Shown here one piece after another: positions 3,869-16,599 of a stretch of DNA of 25,652 nucleotides. A program made the translations under genes and the position numbers. Below the pieces are notes generated by a model. The model worked only from the letters and a program-made list of their open reading frames with translations, did not search any database and was not told the DNA's origin. Position 1 is the stretch's first letter, and every line of letters begins with the position of its first letter. Origin of the DNA: a virus; the IMG/VR virus record IMGVR_UViG_3300044621_000410, positions 1 to 25,652 of that record. One strand, 5' to 3'.

Positions 3869-4103
3869 CTGATTCTCCGCGCAAAATTGCTAAGTCCGAT
3901 TTTGTTGCAGCCCTAAGTTGAACTTCGATGCCCAACACAGGGCTACCGACTTCCATTTGATCCATGAGTTCTTCAAGCCAAGCAAGCGCAAAATCTCTTG
4001 CTGACATCCATCTAGCGTCGTCGTCATGTGGCAGTATGTACGAGTCGTGCTCGCGACATGGGCCACTGATTTCCCAAACGTATTCGGGGGAGAGGTCAGT
4101 CAC
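3852..4103 (-). CDS. hypothetical protein
   Basis: An 83-residue acidic protein starting at GTG (4103), which overlaps the stop of the preceding 51-aa gene by eight bases. The N-terminus MTDLSPEYVWEIS is followed by a probable helical middle (ARDFALAWLEELMDQ) and a strand-rich end (VLGIEVQLRAATKSD). No motif is recognised. The first six residues and about 13 bases around the start repeat those of the next gene downstream, suggesting a copied translation-start segment. Confidence 0.72.
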   Translation of the reverse strand: MTDLSPEYVWEISGPCREHDSYILPHDDDARWMSARDFALAWLEELMDQMEVGSPVLGIEVQLRAATKSDLAILRGESDELDD

Positions 4104-4251
4104 GGTCGGACTCCTCCTCCATCAGCTCCACCAGCTTGAGGATGTGCTCAGCAAAGGCGACGTGGGTCATGACGGCATGGGTGCCCGGAGGCACCCCATA
4201 GCTGTCACGCCACCATGCGTCAAAGGCTGCTTTGATTGATGTGCTGTTCAT
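4096..4251 (-). CDS. small hypothetical protein
   Basis: A 51-residue protein beginning MNSTSIKAAFDAWWRDSYGV and ending in an acidic helix (LVELMEEESD). The FDAWW start resembles short phage proteins in recombination operons, without a known function. The frame is open to 4323, but the upstream part is occupied by a different small coupled gene, so the ATG at 4251 is preferred. It overlaps that gene by 32 bases. Confidence 0.65.
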   Translation of the reverse strand: MNSTSIKAAFDAWWRDSYGVPPGTHAVMTHVAFAEHILKLVELMEEESDRD

Positions 4252-4363
4252 AAAGCCCCGTGTAGAGTGAGTGCATTGGATGGTCGGGATTATCCCGGCC
4301 GTCCTCGTGGTATAAGCGCTCAAGCAGCTCTTGGCGCTCGTTGTCCTGCTTAATGTCAGTCAT
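4220..4363 (-). CDS. small hypothetical protein coupled to SSB
   Basis: A 47-residue gene found by reading directly after SSB. Its ATG overlaps the SSB stop in a TGATG junction, and the stop is TGA at 4222-4220. The product begins MTDIKQDNERQELLERLYHE and continues with a short Asp/Pro/His-rich stretch (DGRDNPDHP). It is hydrophilic, has no cysteine and has no motif I recognise. Coupling to SSB and the absence of any other gene in 4252-4362 are the main evidence. Confidence 0.6.
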   Translation of the reverse strand: MTDIKQDNERQELLERLYHEDGRDNPDHPMHSLYTGLYEQHINQSSL

Positions 4364-4704
4364 CAGAACGCAGCCTCTTCTGATTTGGCACGCGGCAGGT
4401 ACTCGAACCGCTGCACGTTCAGCACATGCTTGCTGCGCTTGGTGCCGGTGTCCTTGTCGTTCCAGTCTTGGCGGCGGATGGCACCGGTCACCATGATGCT
4501 GTCGCCTTTCTTGCAGTTGTCGGCGATCATCTGGCCGCCTTTGCCCCAGACTTCTACGTCGATGGCGTTGTTGATGTAATTGCCGTCCTTATCTTTGCCT
4601 TCGCTGATGCCACCACCGAAGTTGCAAACACAAGTGCCAGAATCAAAAAACTTGATCTGCGGTTCGCTAATAATACGAACGACGCCGGAAGCATAAAGGC
4701 TCAT
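4363..4704 (-). CDS. ssb: single-stranded DNA-binding protein
   Basis: A 113-residue SSB with a single OB-fold. Family features are the opening strand (YASGVVRIISEPQIKFF), the CNFGGGIS segment, AIDVEVWGKGGQMIADNCKKGDSIMVTGAIRRQDW, and a final strand (HVLNVQRFEYLP). It coats ssDNA during replication and recombination. The tail is short (KSEEAAF) but keeps acidic residues before a terminal Phe, a reduced version of the SSB partner-binding tip. It lies just downstream of RecT and RecE-like genes and overlaps the HTH gene before it by four bases. Confidence 0.95.
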   Translation of the reverse strand: MSLYASGVVRIISEPQIKFFDSGTCVCNFGGGISEGKDKDGNYINNAIDVEVWGKGGQMIADNCKKGDSIMVTGAIRRQDWNDKDTGTKRSKHVLNVQRFEYLPRAKSEEAAF

Positions 4705-4904
4705 GGGTTGACAGGGGTAATGGAATTGGACTCTTCAAAGGCCAGGACGTCCGCTATGGGATACCTGACCCGCGACTCGCCTAACGGCAAGCCGAACCGC
4801 GGGACCGTGTAATAGGACGGCCCTTGGCCCCGCAGCCGTTGGGATTTGATGCTGCTTGGCTTCAGACCCCAACGCGCTGCTAGCTGTTCAGTCGTCAGAT
4901 ACAA
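4701..4904 (-). CDS. helix-turn-helix DNA-binding protein (excisionase/AlpA-like)
   Basis: A 67-residue protein with the MerR/AlpA-type start [20 protein letters not shown], followed by [14 protein letters not shown]. This is the winged-helix pattern of excisionases and short phage activators. The TTG at 4904 is the preferred start because an AGGAGG lies seven bases upstream and the domain starts immediately; the open frame further up runs inside RecT. The stop overlaps SSB by four bases. No integrase was seen in the window, so excision is not supported; local gene control is the likelier role. Confidence 0.82.
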
Positions 4905-5634
4905 GATCAGCCTCCTTCTCAAGCATCTGCTGCAGCAGCTTGTCATGCTGCTCTTGCGTCAGATCGCCATCTTCCAGCCGCTTTGCCATGCGCGGTTGCA
5001 GGTCCTCAAGGTCCTGCAGGCTCTTGGCCTTGGCGATGGCAGCAGCGCCGGCAGTGAAGAACTTACTGGTGTCTTTACGCGCAGGCAATGCAGGAGCGCT
5101 CTCGGTGGTAACGGTGACCGGCTCAGACTGGTCCATCTCATCGGTGGTGTAGACGCCGGACATGTCAGCAGGGAACGCCTTGCGCAGTGCCAGTGCCTCG
5201 GAGCACTTGGCGATCATCGCAGCAGGCATCTTGGACCACAGTCCCTGGCCAGCGTTGTAGTCCGCAAACCGGGCGACACCAACAAAGGCATGGTTGCTGC
5301 CCTTGCGGTGCACGATCGTCTTGGCCGCGGCAGGTGGCTTGGATGACAGCCACACATCACGCCAGTCGCCTTCCTCGCCACACCAGTAGGTCTCGGATCC
5401 ATCCAGTTGCCCAGTGCGCTCGGCAATGGCACGGAGGCCGTCAATGCCGGCCTGGATGGTCAGCTTGTTTGCGCGCTTGATGGCGTAGATCTGCTTGCTG
5501 AACGGATCCAGCCCAGTGCGCTGGCAGGCATACGCAAACAGGCGCAGCTCGTCATTGGTGCAGCCCGGTGCAATGGTGCTGCTGATCAGTTGCACCTGAT
5601 CAGGCGTCCAGGTGGTGATTGAAGCGCTGGTCAT
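4888..5634 (-). CDS. RecT/Bet-family ssDNA annealing protein
   Basis: A 248-residue RecT/Bet-type recombinase that anneals complementary single strands after 5' resection. The family core runs from about residue 12 to 165: [59 protein letters not shown] and the closing [24 protein letters not shown] low-complexity tail with an acidic end ([10 protein letters not shown]) follows. ATG at 5634 is chosen because it makes an ATGA overlap with the gene before it and matches the family start. It works with the RecE-like nuclease two genes upstream and the SSB two genes downstream. Confidence 0.95.
4911..4916 (-). promoter_or_regulatory. ribosome-binding site deciding a TTG start
   Basis: AGGAGG on the minus strand, inside the end of RecT, with six bases between it and the TTG at 4904. 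It supports that rare start over the longer frame beginning at 4946. Confidence 0.65.
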
Positions 5635-5879
5635 TGTGCTTGCAGTTCGTTGATGATTTGATTTGCGACTTGCTTGCGCATCATTCCTTGCTGATGCCAT
5701 AATTTTCTAATTTCATTTACATTCCATGTGATGGCCGCACTATGACTATTGCCTAGGCAGTAATGCACGCCACCGATTAATGGACCACCGTTTATGTCGC
5801 GGTTTCTTTTCAAGTGATTCTGTGAGCAGCAAAGATAAGTTGCTGCGTCAGGGGTTCGTAGCCATGTTTGAGTGGTCAT
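5631..5879 (-). CDS. putative small DNA-binding protein
   Basis: An 82-residue protein between the RecE-like nuclease and RecT. It starts at ATG in a TGATG junction and ends in an ATGA overlap, so it is coupled on both sides. The start [20 protein letters not shown] is laid out like the helix-turn-helix of excisionase-type proteins, followed by a loop ([13 protein letters not shown]), a strand (AAITWNV) and a C-terminal helix. I infer a DNA-binding or recombination accessory role from fold-like pattern and position only. Confidence 0.75.
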
Positions 5880-6664
5880 CAGAAGATCTCAGTTTGAATG
5901 GGATTTGTCGCCCACCGAGGCAGGCTGATGGTCTGGATGAACGTGTCGCCGTAGCCCGGCCACACATTGGCGGCATGGCATCCGGCGATCACGTCCATGC
6001 CATTGTCCCGCATGGTCCGCCCTAATGCAAGGGCTTCGCTGTCCAGCTCATACACCGCAACGGCGTGCGGGTAAGTCTTCTCGACTGCGACGAACACGAA
6101 CCGCTCGGCACCATGCAGGCCAGCGAGGTAGTGCGCAGCCTGGACGTGGTAACCGAACGTGGCCACGCTGCGGGCAAATGCCTGCGGGCTGGCGTCGGTG
6201 GTGGTCTTGATGTCCACCACAGTGCTGCCGTAGTACCAGTCAGGACGGCACTTGCATCGCATCCCGGTGGGCAGGTCATCCCACCAGAAGGACTGCTCGG
6301 CCTTGCCTTGCTTCAGCAGTGCTGCTGCTGCAGGGTGCGCCTGCACTGCAGCGCTCATGCCCATGGCCAGTGCCATGTCGCTACTGGTGACCACCTCGAT
6401 GCCTTCGGCTTCCATAGCCGCAGCCTGCTCCTTGCCGGCTTTGGTGTTGCGCGGTGCGCAGATGCCGTAGCGGTTCAGCAGCTCGTCTGGTTCAAGGATG
6501 GCGCAATGGGCCAAGCTGCCGAGCTTCATCGCAGCAGTCGGCTCAACCGGGCTGCGGCTGGGGTCAACGTACCGGCTCCAGTAGTGGTAAGGCGATTGCA
6601 TTACCGCCTTCAGGTGGCTGGCGCTGACGGCTGGATCGGAGTGGTAGTCAAAGTTGCTGATCAC
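5879..6664 (-). CDS. RecE-like/RecB-family exonuclease (PD-(D/E)xK)
   Basis: A 261-residue nuclease of the RecE C-terminal/DUF3799 type. Conserved points are SASHLKAVMQSPYHYWSRY, GSLAHCAILEP with His53, CRPDW with Asp142, and VVDIKTT with Asp151 and Lys153: the H-D-DxK signature of RecB-like exonucleases. GYHVQAAHYL follows with the usual Gln and Tyr. It should resect dsDNA 5' to 3' to give the overhangs used by RecT. The GTG at 6664 is the preferred start: it makes a GTGA overlap with the preceding gene and has GGGAGG a few bases upstream, although the frame continues up to 6697. Confidence 0.92.
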   Translation of the reverse strand: MISNFDYHSDPAVSASHLKAVMQSPYHYWSRYVDPSRSPVEPTAAMKLGSLAHCAILEPDELLNRYGICAPRNTKAGKEQAAAMEAEGIEVVTSSDMALAMGMSAAVQAHPAAAALLKQGKAEQSFWWDDLPTGMRCKCRPDWYYGSTVVDIKTTTDASPQAFARSVATFGYHVQAAHYLAGLHGAERFVFVAVEKTYPHAVAVYELDSEALALGRTMRDNGMDVIAGCHAANVWPGYGDTFIQTISLPRWATNPIQTEIF

Positions 6665-8009: not shown

Positions 8010-9557
8010 TCACAACCCATGCCGTTTAGCCAACCTAGCCTGATAGACCCGCTCTGCCCAGCCGCGTTTGTAGCCACGTTGCTGCGCCAGTTGGCGGAGG
8101 TCCTCCAAGGACTGTGCACTGCCTTGCTCGCGTTTGCCAGCCTTGGAATCAAGCCGCAACCTTGAGATTTTTAACCAATGCCCGTCGCCACCTGGATCGC
8201 CGGTTTTGATTTTGGTGATAAATGCGTAGGAATCGACAATGTGATCAATCGCGTGAATGCGCCACGATCCTGGATACCTAGATGCAATCCGACGGTCGCT
8301 AACCGTCACATAGTCGCCAACCTTGATGCCGCCTGTTTGCATCTCTATAAGCTCACCCTCGACCACCTTTAGCTCCCTGGTCTCCTGCGGCGCGAACACA
8401 TGCCCGCAGTCAGGGCACACCTGCGTGGCGCTCATGCTGGTGGCAAAGCACACCGGGCACACCTTGACCGATGGCGCACGGTCGGCATCGCGCTTCTTGA
8501 TGCCGTCAAGGCTCCAGTCGCGGTCCTCGAGGTGATGGCCCAGTCTGAGCGTGTTGCCGACGTGGTCCAGCACCACAGCAGCAGGCTTGCCCGGTGACGG
8601 TCTCAGGCAACGACCGATCATCTGCAAGTGCAGGCCGACTGACTGCGTTGGCCTGAGCAGAATGCATCCCCCGACGCTTGGCACGTCTACGCCTTCACCA
8701 ATAAGTGAGCACGATGTAAGCACCTTGATGCGACCGGTTCCGAGTGCCTGCAGTAGGTCTCTGCGCTGGTCAGTGGTCATGGTGCCGTCAATACTGGCGG
8801 CAGGGATGCCTTGCGACATGAACAGGGCAGCCACCGCCTCGGCATGTGCCACGCTGCAGCAGAACGCAATCGCCGTCTGCTCTGCTAGGTGCTTACGGTA
8901 GTGACTGCAGCAGTCGCCCATGATGGTGCCGACGCGCTGCTCGGCGTCCTTGGTGTCGAAGTCACCCATGCGCTTGCGCAGCCCAGTGCTGTCAAACCCC
9001 GGAGGTGCCAACACACGGGCACTGGCGAGGTAGCCGTTGTCGGTCAGCCATGCAGCGCTCGGGCCGAGCACCATGGCCTGATAGTGGTCACCTAAGCCGC
9101 GGCCATCACCGCGGCATGGCGTGGCGGTCACGCCTAGGACATGCGCCTGTTGGAAGTGCTGCAGCACCGTTGCCCATTGCCCGGCATTGGTGTGGTGTGC
9201 CTCGTCCACCACCAAGAGCTGGAAGAACCCAGCCGGCAGTTTGTGAAGCCTGCGGGCCACGGTCTGGATCGAGGCAACCTGCACCGCATGGCTTAGGTCC
9301 ATGCTGCGGCCGGCTGCAATGCGGCCATGGGGCACGCCCATAGCCGTGAGACTGCGGCTGGCCTGGTCCAGCAGCTCGGCGCGGTGCACCAAGATGCAGA
9401 CCCGGTTGCCTTTGCGGGCGGCAGACTGGGCAATGTAGCTGAAGCACACCGTCTTGCCGCCACCAGTGGGCAGCACCGCTAGCACAGTGCGGTGCCCTAG
9501 CTGGTACTGCAAGCGGATGTCAGTGATGAGTTGTTGTTGGTAAGGGCGGAGGTTCAT
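8010..9557 (-). CDS. SF2 DEAD/DEAH-type helicase with zinc ribbon
   Basis: A 515-residue superfamily 2 helicase. The first RecA domain has LRPYQQQ (Q-motif-like), PTGGGKT (residues 30-36), VVDEAHH (about 116-122) and VTATP (143-147). The second has LIGEGVDVPSVG and the arginine-finger motif QMIGRCLRPSPGK. After these come a CPVC/CPDCGH zinc ribbon and an SH3-like segment (GGIKVGDYVTVSDRR through SWRIHAIDHI), then a basic tail. It should use ATP to unwind or remodel DNA (or R-loops or branches) in replication or recombination; RadD and phage UvsW are functional comparisons. It overlaps the gene before it by four bases. Confidence 0.95.
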   Translation of the reverse strand: MNLRPYQQQLITDIRLQYQLGHRTVLAVLPTGGGKTVCFSYIAQSAARKGNRVCILVHRAELLDQASRSLTAMGVPHGRIAAGRSMDLSHAVQVASIQTVARRLHKLPAGFFQLLVVDEAHHTNAGQWATVLQHFQQAHVLGVTATPCRGDGRGLGDHYQAMVLGPSAAWLTDNGYLASARVLAPPGFDSTGLRKRMGDFDTKDAEQRVGTIMGDCCSHYRKHLAEQTAIAFCCSVAHAEAVAALFMSQGIPAASIDGTMTTDQRRDLLQALGTGRIKVLTSCSLIGEGVDVPSVGGCILLRPTQSVGLHLQMIGRCLRPSPGKPAAVVLDHVGNTLRLGHHLEDRDWSLDGIKKRDADRAPSVKVCPVCFATSMSATQVCPDCGHVFAPQETRELKVVEGELIEMQTGGIKVGDYVTVSDRRIASRYPGSWRIHAIDHIVDSYAFITKIKTGDPGGDGHWLKISRLRLDSKAGKREQGSAQSLEDLRQLAQQRGYKRGWAERVYQARLAKRHGL

Positions 9558-9802
9558 AGTGGCAGTTCCAGTTGCGTACCTTCGGCTGGCGTTCCATGAA
9601 TAGCAATTTGCGCCATTGTCAAGGCACGTCGTTGTCGCTCGTATGCAGGACGCGAATAACCCAGTTGATAAAGGTGCAGGTCATTTTGCAGCAAAGCAAG
9701 TGCTACAGCTTTCCAAGATGGAGCACGGCCTGAGGCTGCAACCTTGGCCGGCACTTCATCGGGAATCTCGTGCGAATAACAGCGGGTTTTCCACGTCCGC
9801 AC
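9554..9802 (-). CDS. small protein similar to the C-terminal part of IbrA/DUF3440 proteins
   Basis: An 82-residue protein reading RTWKTRCYSHEIPDEVP, then APSWKAVALALLQNDLHLYQ and LGYSRP. The segment from SWK to LG aligns with residues 392-411 of the PAPS-reductase-like protein in this cassette (SWKRFAITVLKNDHTCKYLG), so it looks like a detached C-terminal module. The start is uncertain: GTG at 9802 leaves a 47-base overlap with the preceding gene and begins the conserved part; ATG at 9886 would double the overlap region. Its function is unknown; a shared fold or partner with the PP-loop enzyme is inferred. Confidence 0.78.
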   Translation of the reverse strand: MRTWKTRCYSHEIPDEVPAKVAASGRAPSWKAVALALLQNDLHLYQLGYSRPAYERQRRALTMAQIAIHGTPAEGTQLELPL

Positions 9803-10181
9803 GTATTCCGAGACTCTGGCGGTAGCGCATCTCCCAGGCGCGAATGGCTCGATTCGCTTGTCGGTTCGCCAATGTCCGTTGCTCATCGGTTAAAAGTCCC
9901 CATGCTTGTCTGGTGATGTCTTCAGGGCATCGAAGAGCCAGCGCGCAAGCTGCGTGCCCGATCCATGCTTTGCGATTGAGGTTGTAGTCAGTCAGCGCGT
10001 TGATGCAGCTGTTGGGCCACTCCACCGTGACCCGTTGCATATAGCGCCCGTAGAGGCGGTGATTGCCGGTAAAGATAACGGCCCTTTGCAGGTAGAGGCG
10101 GCGATTAGCTACCTCGCCCCACATGTTGCAGTGGATCTCCTCCCAGGCATCAATGGGTAACCAGATTCTCTTGAGCTTCAT
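9756..10181 (-). CDS. conserved hypothetical protein of the PP-loop/cupin cassette
   Basis: A 141-residue protein that starts MKLKRIWLPIDAWEEIHCNM and continues with EWPNSCINALTDYNLNRKAW and IGHAACALALRCPEDITRQA. The pattern of conserved-looking Trp, Asn, His and Cys suggests a real enzyme or binding fold, but I cannot name one. I associate similar proteins with phage cassettes containing PAPS-reductase-like genes. It overlaps the EctC-ParB fusion upstream by 32 bases, and its end overlaps the next gene, so it is read as part of the same unit. Confidence 0.85.
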   Translation of the reverse strand: MKLKRIWLPIDAWEEIHCNMWGEVANRRLYLQRAVIFTGNHRLYGRYMQRVTVEWPNSCINALTDYNLNRKAWIGHAACALALRCPEDITRQAWGLLTDEQRTLANRQANRAIRAWEMRYRQSLGIRADVENPLLFARDSR

Positions 10182-11091
10182 GTTCTAGATCCTCCGTCAA
10201 GTTGTCGATTTGTTCCACGTCCCACGCCTTGCTGAAATCTTTACCCAAAAACAGCGAGGCCAAGCCTGTAACTTGCTTAAGGCGCAAAAGTTCATCAGGG
10301 CTCATGCCAATGTGCTTGCAAATCCATGCGTCGCCTTTGCCCATCTCAATCAGCTCAGCAACAATTACGCTCATCAGTTCAATGTTGTGCGAACCACGAG
10401 CGCGATTGTGCCGGATGGTTGATGCCATCCTGTCATGCAATTCTTTGCGCAGTACTACTACAGGCAACCGGCCGCCTTCGCGTTCGCGGATGCGCTGACT
10501 GTTCCTTAGAGTTAAATAACGGTGAAAACCGTCAACGACCACATAAAGGTCACGCTCGGCATCATGCACGACAACGACAGGTTGCGTGTAACCATCTTCC
10601 CAGATGGATGTTTCGAGTAGTGCCATTTCAGGCGGCGCCACAGAGTTGGGGTTGTAATCATTGGCGGTAACTTTCTCGATAGGAATACTGCGTACGGAAT
10701 AAACCGGGGATCGCCAAGGGTAAGAGTCGTTCTCGTCATGTAGCTCATTGCCTTTAAGTGGCGGGTTAAAAACGCAAATAAGCGTGGTCGGTTCTAGAGC
10801 TTCAAAAATGTGAGGATCATGCTTGTCAAGCACATAAGTCACATCAGGCCCGATAACGTGAATCTCTTGTGTTGCTTCGTTAATGAGCAGACCTTTGCCG
10901 CTGACGCAGTAGCAAGTTTCGAGGTGGTGTTGATAGTGCCAACGGTGTGGTTTGCCGGGATGCACAATGGTCTTGGTCATGCTGTATCCCATGCCATCGT
11001 CTTCTGTTAACAAGCGATGGCTGGTAAAACCACCTTTGGGACAGTTAACGATGCGATCAGAAGAGAGCTGAGAAACGTTTAGGATTTTCAT
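10150..11091 (-). CDS. fusion of EctC-like cupin and ParB/IbrB-like domain
   Basis: A 313-residue two-domain protein. Residues 1-125 read like ectoine synthase: LLTEDDGMGYSMTKTIVHPG, HYQHHLETCYCVSGKG, YVLDKHDPH, LICVFNPPLKGNELHDENDS. Glu58, Tyr86 and His94 fall where the iron ligands of characterised EctC (Glu57, Tyr85, His93 as I recall) lie. Residues about 132-235 are a ParB/sulfiredoxin-like domain: IPIEKVTANDYNPN, TQPVVVV, YVVVDGFHRYLTL, then the RMASTIRHNRARGSH box. Residues 236-305 are helical, as in ParB HTH regions. Single-domain IbrB proteins pair with IbrA-like PP-loop proteins, and the gene before this one is such a protein, with a four-base overlap. No ectA or ectB is nearby, so ectoine synthesis is not supported. 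Confidence 0.9.
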   Translation of the reverse strand: MKILNVSQLSSDRIVNCPKGGFTSHRLLTEDDGMGYSMTKTIVHPGKPHRWHYQHHLETCYCVSGKGLLINEATQEIHVIGPDVTYVLDKHDPHIFEALEPTTLICVFNPPLKGNELHDENDSYPWRSPVYSVRSIPIEKVTANDYNPNSVAPPEMALLETSIWEDGYTQPVVVVHDAERDLYVVVDGFHRYLTLRNSQRIREREGGRLPVVVLRKELHDRMASTIRHNRARGSHNIELMSVIVAELIEMGKGDAWICKHIGMSPDELLRLKQVTGLASLFLGKDFSKAWDVEQIDNLTEDLEHEAQENLVTH

Positions 11092-15401: not shown

Positions 15402-15562
15402 TCAACCGGCTCCATGACGCCATGGAGCACGCATTGGCGTATGCTGCTGCGATCCGCGACAATGCCCAAGACGATCAGCAACCCATCCCTGCTGAACTGG
15501 TCGCGTCATTCGCAGCCGACTACAACCGGCTGGTTTCAATCCTCACCGAAGCTGCATCATGA
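15362..15562 (+). CDS. small helical hypothetical protein
   Basis: A 66-residue, mostly helical protein (VINRLHDAMEHALAYAAAIR, then SFAADYNRLVSILTEAA) with no motif I can name. It starts inside the preceding gene and shares an ATGA with the start of the clamp gene, so its translation is probably tied to both. Position suggests a replication accessory protein, without direct evidence. Confidence 0.7.
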   Translation: MELIDIAAKQQPVINRLHDAMEHALAYAAAIRDNAQDDQQPIPAELVASFAADYNRLVSILTEAAS

Positions 15563-16599
15563 AACTCATCACCACACAGGCTGATCTCAGCCATGCACTG
15601 CGCACCATTGCGCCGGCCATCAGCACCAGCAACAGCCATCCGATCCTGTCCTGCTGCCTGGTAGCTGCCAGCGGCGGCACCATGACCGTCACCGGATTCA
15701 ACCTGGACCTCGGCATCACGGTCACCGTTCCCGCAGCCGTAGACACATCTGGCACCGTGGCGCTGCCGTATCGGCTGCTGGCTGGCCTTGTGAGCCGCAT
15801 GGACGACGGTGAGCCTGTGACCCTGTCAGACGGCGCTGTGACGGCCTCCAGCGGCTCCTACGGCCTTGCTGTGCAGGATGCGGCGGATTATCCGGCATTG
15901 CCCGCTGTGGAGGCTCCTGGTGCTGAGCTGGACCTCACCGCTGGCGTGCGTGCTTGCATGGCAGCCGTCAGCACCGATGCCAGTAAGCAGATCCTGCAGG
16001 GCATTCACCTCGCTGCTGGGTTCATGGAGTCCACAGACGGCCATCGGCTCATGCGCGTGCCTGTGGCGCTGCCCGATGGCATTGACCTGGTGCTGCCGGC
16101 AGCGACTATGAAGCTGCTGCAGGATCGGATGGTGACAGTAGCAGCAGCCAAGGGGCAGGCGGTCATTGACGCTGGTGATGGCATCGTCATGTACAGCCGC
16201 ATCCTCGATGGCACCTATCCCAACGTGGCAGCGCTAATCCCCGCCAGCTTCGAGCACGCCATGACCATGGACCGGCACCGGTTCACCCGATGCCTAGAGC
16301 GCGTCGCGTTGATCGCTGAGGCGCACAACAATGCCGTCAAGCTCACGGCCAAGGGTGGTGCGCTCACCATCACCGCTGAAGCCGATGCCAATAACGGCAA
16401 AGAGCTGATCACCTTCGAGGGCTCTGCCACTGGGTCGTGGGCGTTTAACGTGCACTACCTGCTCGATGGCCTGAAGGCTATGCGATCGGCGGAGACTGTT
16501 ACACTGTCAGCCAACAGCGCAACAACCCCAGTGGTGTTGACGCCGACTAGCATGACAGAGCAGACATATCTCATCATGCCAATTCAAATCCGGGAGTAA
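15559..16599 (+). CDS. dnaN: DNA polymerase III beta-type sliding clamp
   Basis: A 346-residue bacterial-type sliding clamp, close to the usual 366. The three-domain fold shows in repeated signatures: LSHALRTIAPAISTSNSHPI (domain 1), QILQGIHLAA and STDGHRLMRVPV (domain 2), then YPNVAALIP, FNVHYLLDGLKAM and the ending YLIMPIQIRE (domain 3, with the family M-P-hydrophobic-R end). It forms a dimeric ring that tethers polymerase to DNA. No polymerase gene is in the window, so this clamp could load onto host DNA polymerase III or serve late transcription or repair. It starts in an ATGA overlap. Confidence 0.95.
   Translation: MKLITTQADLSHALRTIAPAISTSNSHPILSCCLVAASGGTMTVTGFNLDLGITVTVPAAVDTSGTVALPYRLLAGLVSRMDDGEPVTLSDGAVTASSGSYGLAVQDAADYPALPAVEAPGAELDLTAGVRACMAAVSTDASKQILQGIHLAAGFMESTDGHRLMRVPVALPDGIDLVLPAATMKLLQDRMVTVAAAKGQAVIDAGDGIVMYSRILDGTYPNVAALIPASFEHAMTMDRHRFTRCLERVALIAEAHNNAVKLTAKGGALTITAEADANNGKELITFEGSATGSWAFNVHYLLDGLKAMRSAETVTLSANSATTPVVLTPTSMTEQTYLIMPIQIRE

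Follow-up and report, generated by a model that had tools for sequence, protein, structure and literature searches.

The closest described systems are the IbrA/IbrB pair of phages and enterobacteria, in which a DUF3440 protein is commonly paired with a ParB-type protein (YbdN/YbdM in E. coli), the proteins of DNA phosphorothioation (Dnd) and the ectoine synthase EctC. In the literature, IbrA and IbrB are labelled as co-activators of prophage gene expression (PMC4490671), a link of IbrAB to virulence is hypothesised (PMC4541368), a gene network has IbrAB among its functional categories (PMC5874904) and the regulation of YbdN/YbdM is treated (PMC9068703). Neither a biochemical function of IbrAB nor a discussion of an EctC-IbrB fusion was found in the accessible parts of the literature searched, which held few subscription papers and no preprints. 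For the Dnd proteins it was described that DndC is PAPS-reductase-like and modifies DNA and that DndB, a member of the ParB superfamily, is encoded in 52% of the taxa with Dnd modification (PMC10853773, PMC12839542), acting as a regulator outside the chemistry (PMC10853773). In EctC, 13 residues are strictly conserved across 440 proteins (PMC4795551). Conservation of Trp-21 is described for 437 canonical EctC proteins, and 145 orphan ones also have it; this mobile residue and residue 38 make contact with the substrate at its carbon chain and carboxylate, and PlEctC with Trp-21 exchanged to Ala retains 9.7% activity (PMC6344544).

The combination of an EctC-type and a ParB-type domain is known by name. 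"Ectoine synthase/ParB multidomain protein" is the GenBank name of gp104 of Mycobacterium phage Gaia (KJ567043) and of two genes of Pseudoalteromonas phage XCL1123 (MN313256), and the fusion protein of phage Nebkiss is annotated as ParB-like protein. Gaia gp104 and the XCL1123 genes have the same domains in the same order after a PAPS reductase as the locus studied here, and they are named without a function being given. Gaia, which infects M. smegmatis, also encodes relatives of p141 and p110. The author of an earlier note on this DNA was not aware of a described function for the architecture; the combination had already been named in these two records.

The window, i.e., the whole stretch of DNA analysed, is a virus record of 25,652 bases. 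On its minus strand an uninterrupted 313-codon frame joins an EctC-type cupin to an IbrB/ParB domain, as had been noticed from the sequence before (Table 1). Profile searches assign the remainder of the window to a tailed phage encoding a sigma factor, dCTP deaminase, SSB, RecT, a PD-(D/E)XK nuclease, DnaN, terminase, DUF4055, Mu-F and a primase/VapE protein. Of 225 viral relatives, the 80 best span nearly the whole fusion protein with 65-100% identity, four relatives are identical to it, and full-length copies are present in the Mycobacterium phages Gaia and Nebkiss; the frame is thus not the product of a frameshift. The AlphaFold2 model of the fusion has a mean pLDDT of 78 and a pTM of 0.47, and the relative placing of the two domains is unsure.

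Table 1. Position of the fusion gene, its domains, the neighbouring operon genes and the sliding clamp gene in the window.
Feature	Position	Strand	Evidence
p110, resembling the C-terminal DUF3440 tail of IbrA, ends QLELPL	9554..9886	-	phrog_15645 2e-4
p141, conserved all-helical protein	9756..10181	-	no known family; overlaps fusion gene by 32 bases
EctC cupin::IbrB fusion protein	10150..11091	-	313 aa; profile matches and structure model
IbrB/ParB domain, residues 127-313	10153..10713	-	phrog_2159 6.8e-77; KorB 8qa9 Z 14.0
EctC-type cupin domain, residues 1-126	10714..11091	-	PF06339 E 2.9e-37; Z 19.8 to 5bxx
IbrA, PP-loop ATPase (SGGKDS) with DUF3440, 438 aa	11088..12404	-	PF11922 4.3e-53, PF01507 9.5e-9, phrog_2302 2.2e-108
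DnaN, phage-encoded DNA polymerase sliding clamp	15559..16599	+	PF00712, PF02767, PF02768

The gene order ibrA-fusion-p141-p110 on one strand was found in 80 of the 86 loci first gathered, many of which are close relatives and one of which, XCL1123, is counted with its ParB half in place of the fusion; the window's own locus (L081) shows the same order on the other strand. A search with divergent cupins as queries, of which the best 80 of 98 relatives were used, added 73 loci, several of them overlapping the earlier sample. EctC and IbrB are split in 52 of these, fused in 18 and cut by the contig end in 3, and none is without IbrB. Among the best 80 of 98 relatives, IbrB lies within 2.6 kb of the divergent EctC-like cupin in all 70 uncut viral loci, which comprise 58 distinct cupin sequences. 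In the split loci IbrB starts up to 150 bases after the cupin (40 loci), 194-1006 bases after it (8 loci) or 1.9-2.5 kb before it (4 loci), and across 325 loci with IbrB the order ibrA-ectC-ibrB is found in 52 of 60 split forms. The tree of 52 non-redundant cupins needs six changes between fused and split state, at least three of which are forced by well-supported branches. The covalent link therefore comes and goes while IbrB stays in the locus, which points to a lasting functional tie between EctC and IbrB. The physical fusion stressed in the earlier note is not the key feature: its state switched several times and the domains are often separate genes. Moreover, the fusion was rejected as the essential novelty, as split forms are common and the combination carries a name in the two GenBank records. 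The unit is the IbrA/IbrB operon, to which p141, p110 and one accessory enzyme that can be exchanged belong; p141 and p110 had escaped the earlier note.

Clustering of IbrB at 85% identity resulted in 111 clusters, a count omitting L323-L361 and also L167-L238, mostly repeat contigs, of which seven were kept; these L167-L238 rows are likewise left out of the single-protein GNAT scan and the Zn-ribbon count given below. IbrA is encoded in the same locus in 108 of them; two of the others (L417, L433) begin at the cupin or the fusion, and the third (L402, positions 3953-4952) has cupin and IbrB and no ibrA match despite 3.9 kb of upstream sequence. In a phage collection of 50,697 records, the cupin was detected at E 0.001 in five records, four of which adjoin IbrAB (three phages, Gaia twice). 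The fifth, MT835761.1 (L323, labelled Bacteriophage sp.), has EctC downstream of an aminotransferase gene; as the pair looks like ectB-ectC by eye, the record is probably misfiled bacterial DNA and was discarded as a phage cupin locus. A ResIII-type helicase encoded just downstream in the window (8010-9557) was also dismissed as a core part of the module, its relatives occurring there in one of eight fused and none of 16 split clusters, the clusters with enough sequence for this comparison.

The cupin domain belongs to the EctC family. Residues 11-126 match the Pfam family Ectoine_synth with 128.2 bits (cut-off 27), the fusion matches the NCBIfam ectoine synthase PRK13290 with 135.7 bits (cut-off 128), and the cupin model superimposes on the S. 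alaskensis ectoine synthase with an rmsd of 1.0 over 112 residues. The iron ligands Glu-57, Tyr-85 and His-93 of EctC correspond to E58, Y86 and H94 in the window, and all three are kept in 52 of 52 non-redundant phage cupins, as are the equivalents of Ser-23, Arg-25, Thr-40, Tyr-52, Glu-115 and His-117. His-55 and Phe-107 are each found in 51 and Leu-87 in 49 of these 52 sequences, and the position of Cys-105 is occupied by C (30) or S (22). Trp-21 is present in none of them, being replaced by F (32), G (16), M (3) or C (1), with F22 in the window; position 38 is T (24), H (18), C (5), S (3) or M (2). Furthermore, C60 and C62 of the window (positions 59 and 61 in SaEctC) are invariant, position 59 being Cys in 52 of 52 phage cupins, whereas the reference EctC rows have Trp-21 in 35 of 35 and Val-59 in 34 of 35. 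These 35 rows are 37 minus L219 and L237, two viral contigs ending before IbrB, which are the only rows among the 37 that lack Trp-21. In the tree, the IbrAB cupins branch apart from 34 reference cellular EctC and two PDB sequences (support 96/88). A very divergent cellular EctC-like protein (L339), with Cys at position 59, adjoins the phage cupins on a long branch. The dN/dS ratio of the cupin is 0.02-0.07 in those five of nine pairs that gave a computable dS, a rough estimate as dS is near saturation (1.7-4.3).

Judged from these sequence data, the cupin is likely an enzyme. The invariance of the iron ligands and catalytic residues together with the loss of Trp-21 suggests that the same metal chemistry is probably kept and acts on another substrate. 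The earlier note had described the cupin as EctC-like, with the iron-holding residues in place at a one-residue shift, possibly active and probably directed to a substrate unlike that of ectoine synthesis; the ligands in all 52 cupins support the first points and the absence of Trp-21 the last.

The second domain is similar to proteins annotated as IbrB. Its residues 133-198 match ParB_N (PF02195) with 8.3e-5 and 23.0 bits, just below the Pfam cut-off of 26.3, and the assignment to an IbrB/ParB type made earlier is carried by the match to a phage ParB-like PHROG and by the fold. In the predicted structure, KorB is matched over residues 131-286 (rmsd 5.4), followed by Noc (Z 13.3) and ParB-CDP (6sdk, Z 12.7), and a KorB-like helical region comes after the ParB domain at about residues 237-281. 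The GERR motif of ParB CTPases is nucleotide-binding. Where Noc has AGERR, IbrB has DGFHRY (residues 187-192), of which D187, G188, H190 and R191 are kept in at least 97% of 112 IbrB rows and which resembles DGVHRY of the serine kinase SbnI. Of the CTP-handling ParB fold proposed earlier, the fold is thus retained, but the handling of CTP is not supported.

The PP-loop neighbour noticed earlier is IbrA, with PAPS_reduct and DUF3440 domains; its gene precedes the fusion and overlaps the start of the fusion by four bases. The SGGKDS loop and one cysteine (C92) are kept in at least 98% of 102 IbrA rows. Cupin-linked IbrA proteins are set apart from other IbrA proteins by 34 columns, including N64, N67, L97, P98, T100, C110, 252-255 and 257, whereas IbrB has two such columns under looser thresholds. 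This fits a changed substrate or product of IbrA in cupin operons, and shared descent could also explain it. IbrA reaches 20.2 bits with the DndC profile (cut-off 290.4), i.e., a remote similarity, and the set is not assigned to the Dnd/Ssp phosphorothioation systems. NCBIfam TtcA and TilS match IbrA weakly, far under their cut-offs.

In cupin-less IbrAB operons the place of the cupin, or the place just before ibrA, is often occupied by a GNAT-type protein. It was found in 57 of 253 loci: between ibrA and ibrB in 20, directly before ibrA in 34, after them in 1 and elsewhere in 2. Among the 111 IbrB clusters, 37 have the cupin (12 fused, 25 split), 21 the GNAT-type protein, none both and 53 neither (Fisher p 7.5e-5); among the 96 clusters of a previous sample, 14 had the cupin, 25 GNAT and none both (p 0.018). 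These p-values are guides only, because the clusters depend on one another and were sampled along the queries of the analysis itself. As 74 of the 111 clusters are without cupin, 53 of these also without GNAT, neither protein is needed by IbrAB as such. The GNAT grouping was obtained by iterated hmmsearch, which can drift, and an hhalign comparison, distorted by the helicase-GNAT fusion of L116, was left unused. Among ten slot proteins compared with Pfam GNAT, two pass (L094, 43.0 vs 23.6; L114, 30.9 vs 20.7), two match weakly below the cut-off and six do not match. A PHROGs scan of five slot proteins gave acetyltransferase matches for L121 and for L116 in its C-terminal part, and no match for L109, L270 and L259. 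A motif resembling the acetyl-CoA loop is present in 18 of the 57 GNAT-type proteins. With two of ten proteins passing the Pfam model and the motif in 18 of 57, the term acetyltransferase may be wrong for many slot proteins. A scan of viral contigs with the GNAT alignment found none; a scan with a single GNAT-type protein found four loci, all with IbrAB, which says little about an occurrence of the GNAT family outside such operons, as three of them were already in the sample chosen by IbrAB.

Several of these operons carry further proteins. In L116 (2879-4672) a helicase is fused to the GNAT-type domain upstream of ibrA, and in L100 a nuclease-like protein (YLSDYKSNAKN; judged by eye to resemble the PD-(D/E)XK type) is encoded at 5460-6011, in the slot flanked by ibrA and ibrB. 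Cupin-less IbrAB operons such as L096, L104, L109 and L121 often have as their first genes those for an SNF2-type helicase and for a Zn-ribbon-like protein about 400 aa long (in 17 loci). The helicase gene immediately precedes ibrA in 37 of the 69 cupin-less clusters that could be tested vs 1 of 28 with cupin.

Two small proteins accompany the cupin. p141 was found in 31 of the 37 cupin clusters vs 4 of the 74 others (3e-17) and p110 in 28 of 37 vs 4 of 74 (2e-14), with clusters that are not independent. For p141 of the window no Pfam family above cut-off and no match in PHROGs, NCBIfam or PADLOC was found, and its relatives likewise gave no Pfam or PHROGs family; its model (pLDDT 86) found nothing at E 0.001 in a PDB fold search, the best match having Z 3.3. 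A distant relative (25.8% identity, E 5.7e-6) is encoded between ibrB and ibrA in the Microcystis phage Mwe-JY13 (L085, 5560-5985), a locus with no cupin; its annotation as "ParB/sulfiredoxin" seems wrong. The p141 and p110 genes overlap in different frames by 131 bases (9756-9886), and relatives such as L067 likewise have a long overlap of the two.

p110 is similar to the C-terminus of IbrA in L085 (BLAST 1.2e-5) and reaches 14.6 bits with DUF3440, below the cut-off of 25. The bacterial sliding-clamp motif is QL(S/D)LF. In 46 of 63 distinct p110 tails a motif of the type Q-x-x-hydrophobic lies within the last 14 residues (QLELPL, QLELF, QMEMF), compared with a mean of 1.6 and a maximum of 5 in 500 rounds of shuffling; the motif was defined after viewing the alignment, it is missing from 17 of the 63 tails, and the majority of the 63 are closely related. 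Several distant p110 members keep the motif. By its sequence the p110 tail looks like the sliding-clamp motif, and the DnaN encoded by the phage itself is a possible partner.

Taken together, we tentatively propose, at somewhat less than an even chance, that the EctC-type protein is an iron-dependent cyclase which is tied to IbrB and carries out the finishing step in a phage IbrA/IbrB system modifying DNA. DNA as the target is a similarly tentative assumption, for which DndC, with DndB often encoded beside it, is a partial precedent. In the proposed mechanism, IbrB would hold the DNA with its ParB fold and helix-turn-helix-like region, and IbrA would spend ATP through its PP-loop on activating a carbonyl or phosphate and would add a group that carries an amine or sulfur. 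The iron of the cupin (E58/Y86/H94) would then activate an amide-like carbonyl, leading to loss of water and ring closure, parallel to the reaction of EctC on N-gamma-acetyl-diaminobutyrate and with a differently shaped substrate. In related operons the GNAT-type protein would replace the cupin, and p110, with its IbrA-like C-terminal motif and clamp-binding-like tail, might bring the set to newly replicated DNA. A more specific version, possible and on the whole somewhat unlikely, is a family of phage DNA hypermodification systems, in which an amine-bearing group is placed on base or backbone at the fork, p110 provides the tether to the clamp, and the cupin cyclises the group to an ectoine-like cyclic amidine or a GNAT-type protein treats it.

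Alternatively, the cupin might sense an amino-acid-like metabolite and tune a DNA-bound ParB-type protein, IbrAB acting as a transcription co-activator in (pro)phages. The co-activator label of IbrA/B (PMC4490671), the resemblance of IbrB to the repressor KorB and to ParB/Noc, and the occurrence of cupin domains in regulators (6b8w among the structural matches) agree with such a ligand-sensing regulator. However, a pure sensor need not keep three iron ligands plus Glu-115 and His-117 in 52 of 52 sequences, the cupin is often a separate protein, and the columns marking the cupin operons sit in IbrA and not in IbrB; we regard this alternative as unlikely. That RNA, e.g., tRNA, or protein is modified in place of DNA is less likely still: IbrA would act like TilS/TtcA and the cupin would finish the added side chain, which agrees with tRNA enzymes being among the PP-loop relatives, if by weak matches, and with the suitability of EctC chemistry for an amide and an amine, but the KorB-like helical region of the ParB-type IbrB and the clamp-binding-like tail of p110 point to DNA, and no RNA-binding domain was found in Pfam, PHROGs, NCBIfam and PADLOC scans.

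A role in free small-molecule metabolism is improbable. The intact iron site and most of the catalytic residues would allow the cupin to make ectoine or a relative as an auxiliary metabolic gene product, or to cyclise glutamine to ADPC, glutamine being a side substrate of EctC (PMC4795551), and a viral ectoine synthase has been read as an osmotic-stress or salinity gene (PMC13079714). However, profiles of ectA and ectB matched in none of 18 records each, window included, in agreement with the earlier note; many of these records are fragments, and the genome of the host, which could supply both enzymes, was outside the scope. The loss of Trp-21, costly for PlEctC, and the linkage to IbrB in all 70 uncut loci also argue against this role, and an osmolyte function in particular appears unlikely. 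The salinity reading in PMC13079714 deserves re-checking against the operon context. Finally, a role of IbrB as SerK/SbnI-type amino-acid kinase, in an operon building a diamino-acid derivative for cyclisation by the cupin, is very improbable, since its profile, though matching SerK (E 0.006) and SbnI (0.017) and sharing the DGFHRY-like motif, matches Noc (1.1e-5) and ParB (7.5e-5) better, its structure KorB, and the operon showed no other recognisable amino-acid enzyme.

As a summary, the phage module is real, widespread and unexplained, and the reading of the EctC-type protein as an exchangeable finishing enzyme was not found in the accessible parts of the literature searched. IbrAB genes came up in phages and plasmids as well as in genome contigs of bacteria from many phyla. 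That their operons may contain an EctC-type cyclase or, in its stead, a GNAT-type protein, with no case of both in the sample, offers a chemical handle on them. It also provides a context for one group of EctC proteins outside ect clusters, the role of which was called not yet clear (PMC6344544).

Compared with the plain IbrA/IbrB pair, the operon of the window type has in addition an EctC-type enzyme, p141, p110 and a distinct IbrA subclass. The phage cupins have the fold and iron ligands of EctC (PDB 5bxx, 5onm, 5onn, 5ono) and its orphan homologues, including the shared Thr-40, Tyr-52, Ser-23, Arg-25, Glu-115 and His-117, and differ from it in the exchange of Trp-21 for F, G, M or C, in the constant Cys at position 59, in the tie to IbrB and in that no ectAB was seen. 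Mom of phage Mu is a GNAT-fold phage DNA-modification enzyme, to which the GNAT-type slot protein is likened at the level of general description. As in DNA phosphorothioation, where a PAPS-reductase-like PP-loop enzyme (DndC) often has a ParB-superfamily protein (DndB) encoded nearby, IbrA is accompanied by IbrB; unlike Dnd, to which its sequence similarity is remote, the IbrAB system has a cupin or a GNAT-type protein as partner.
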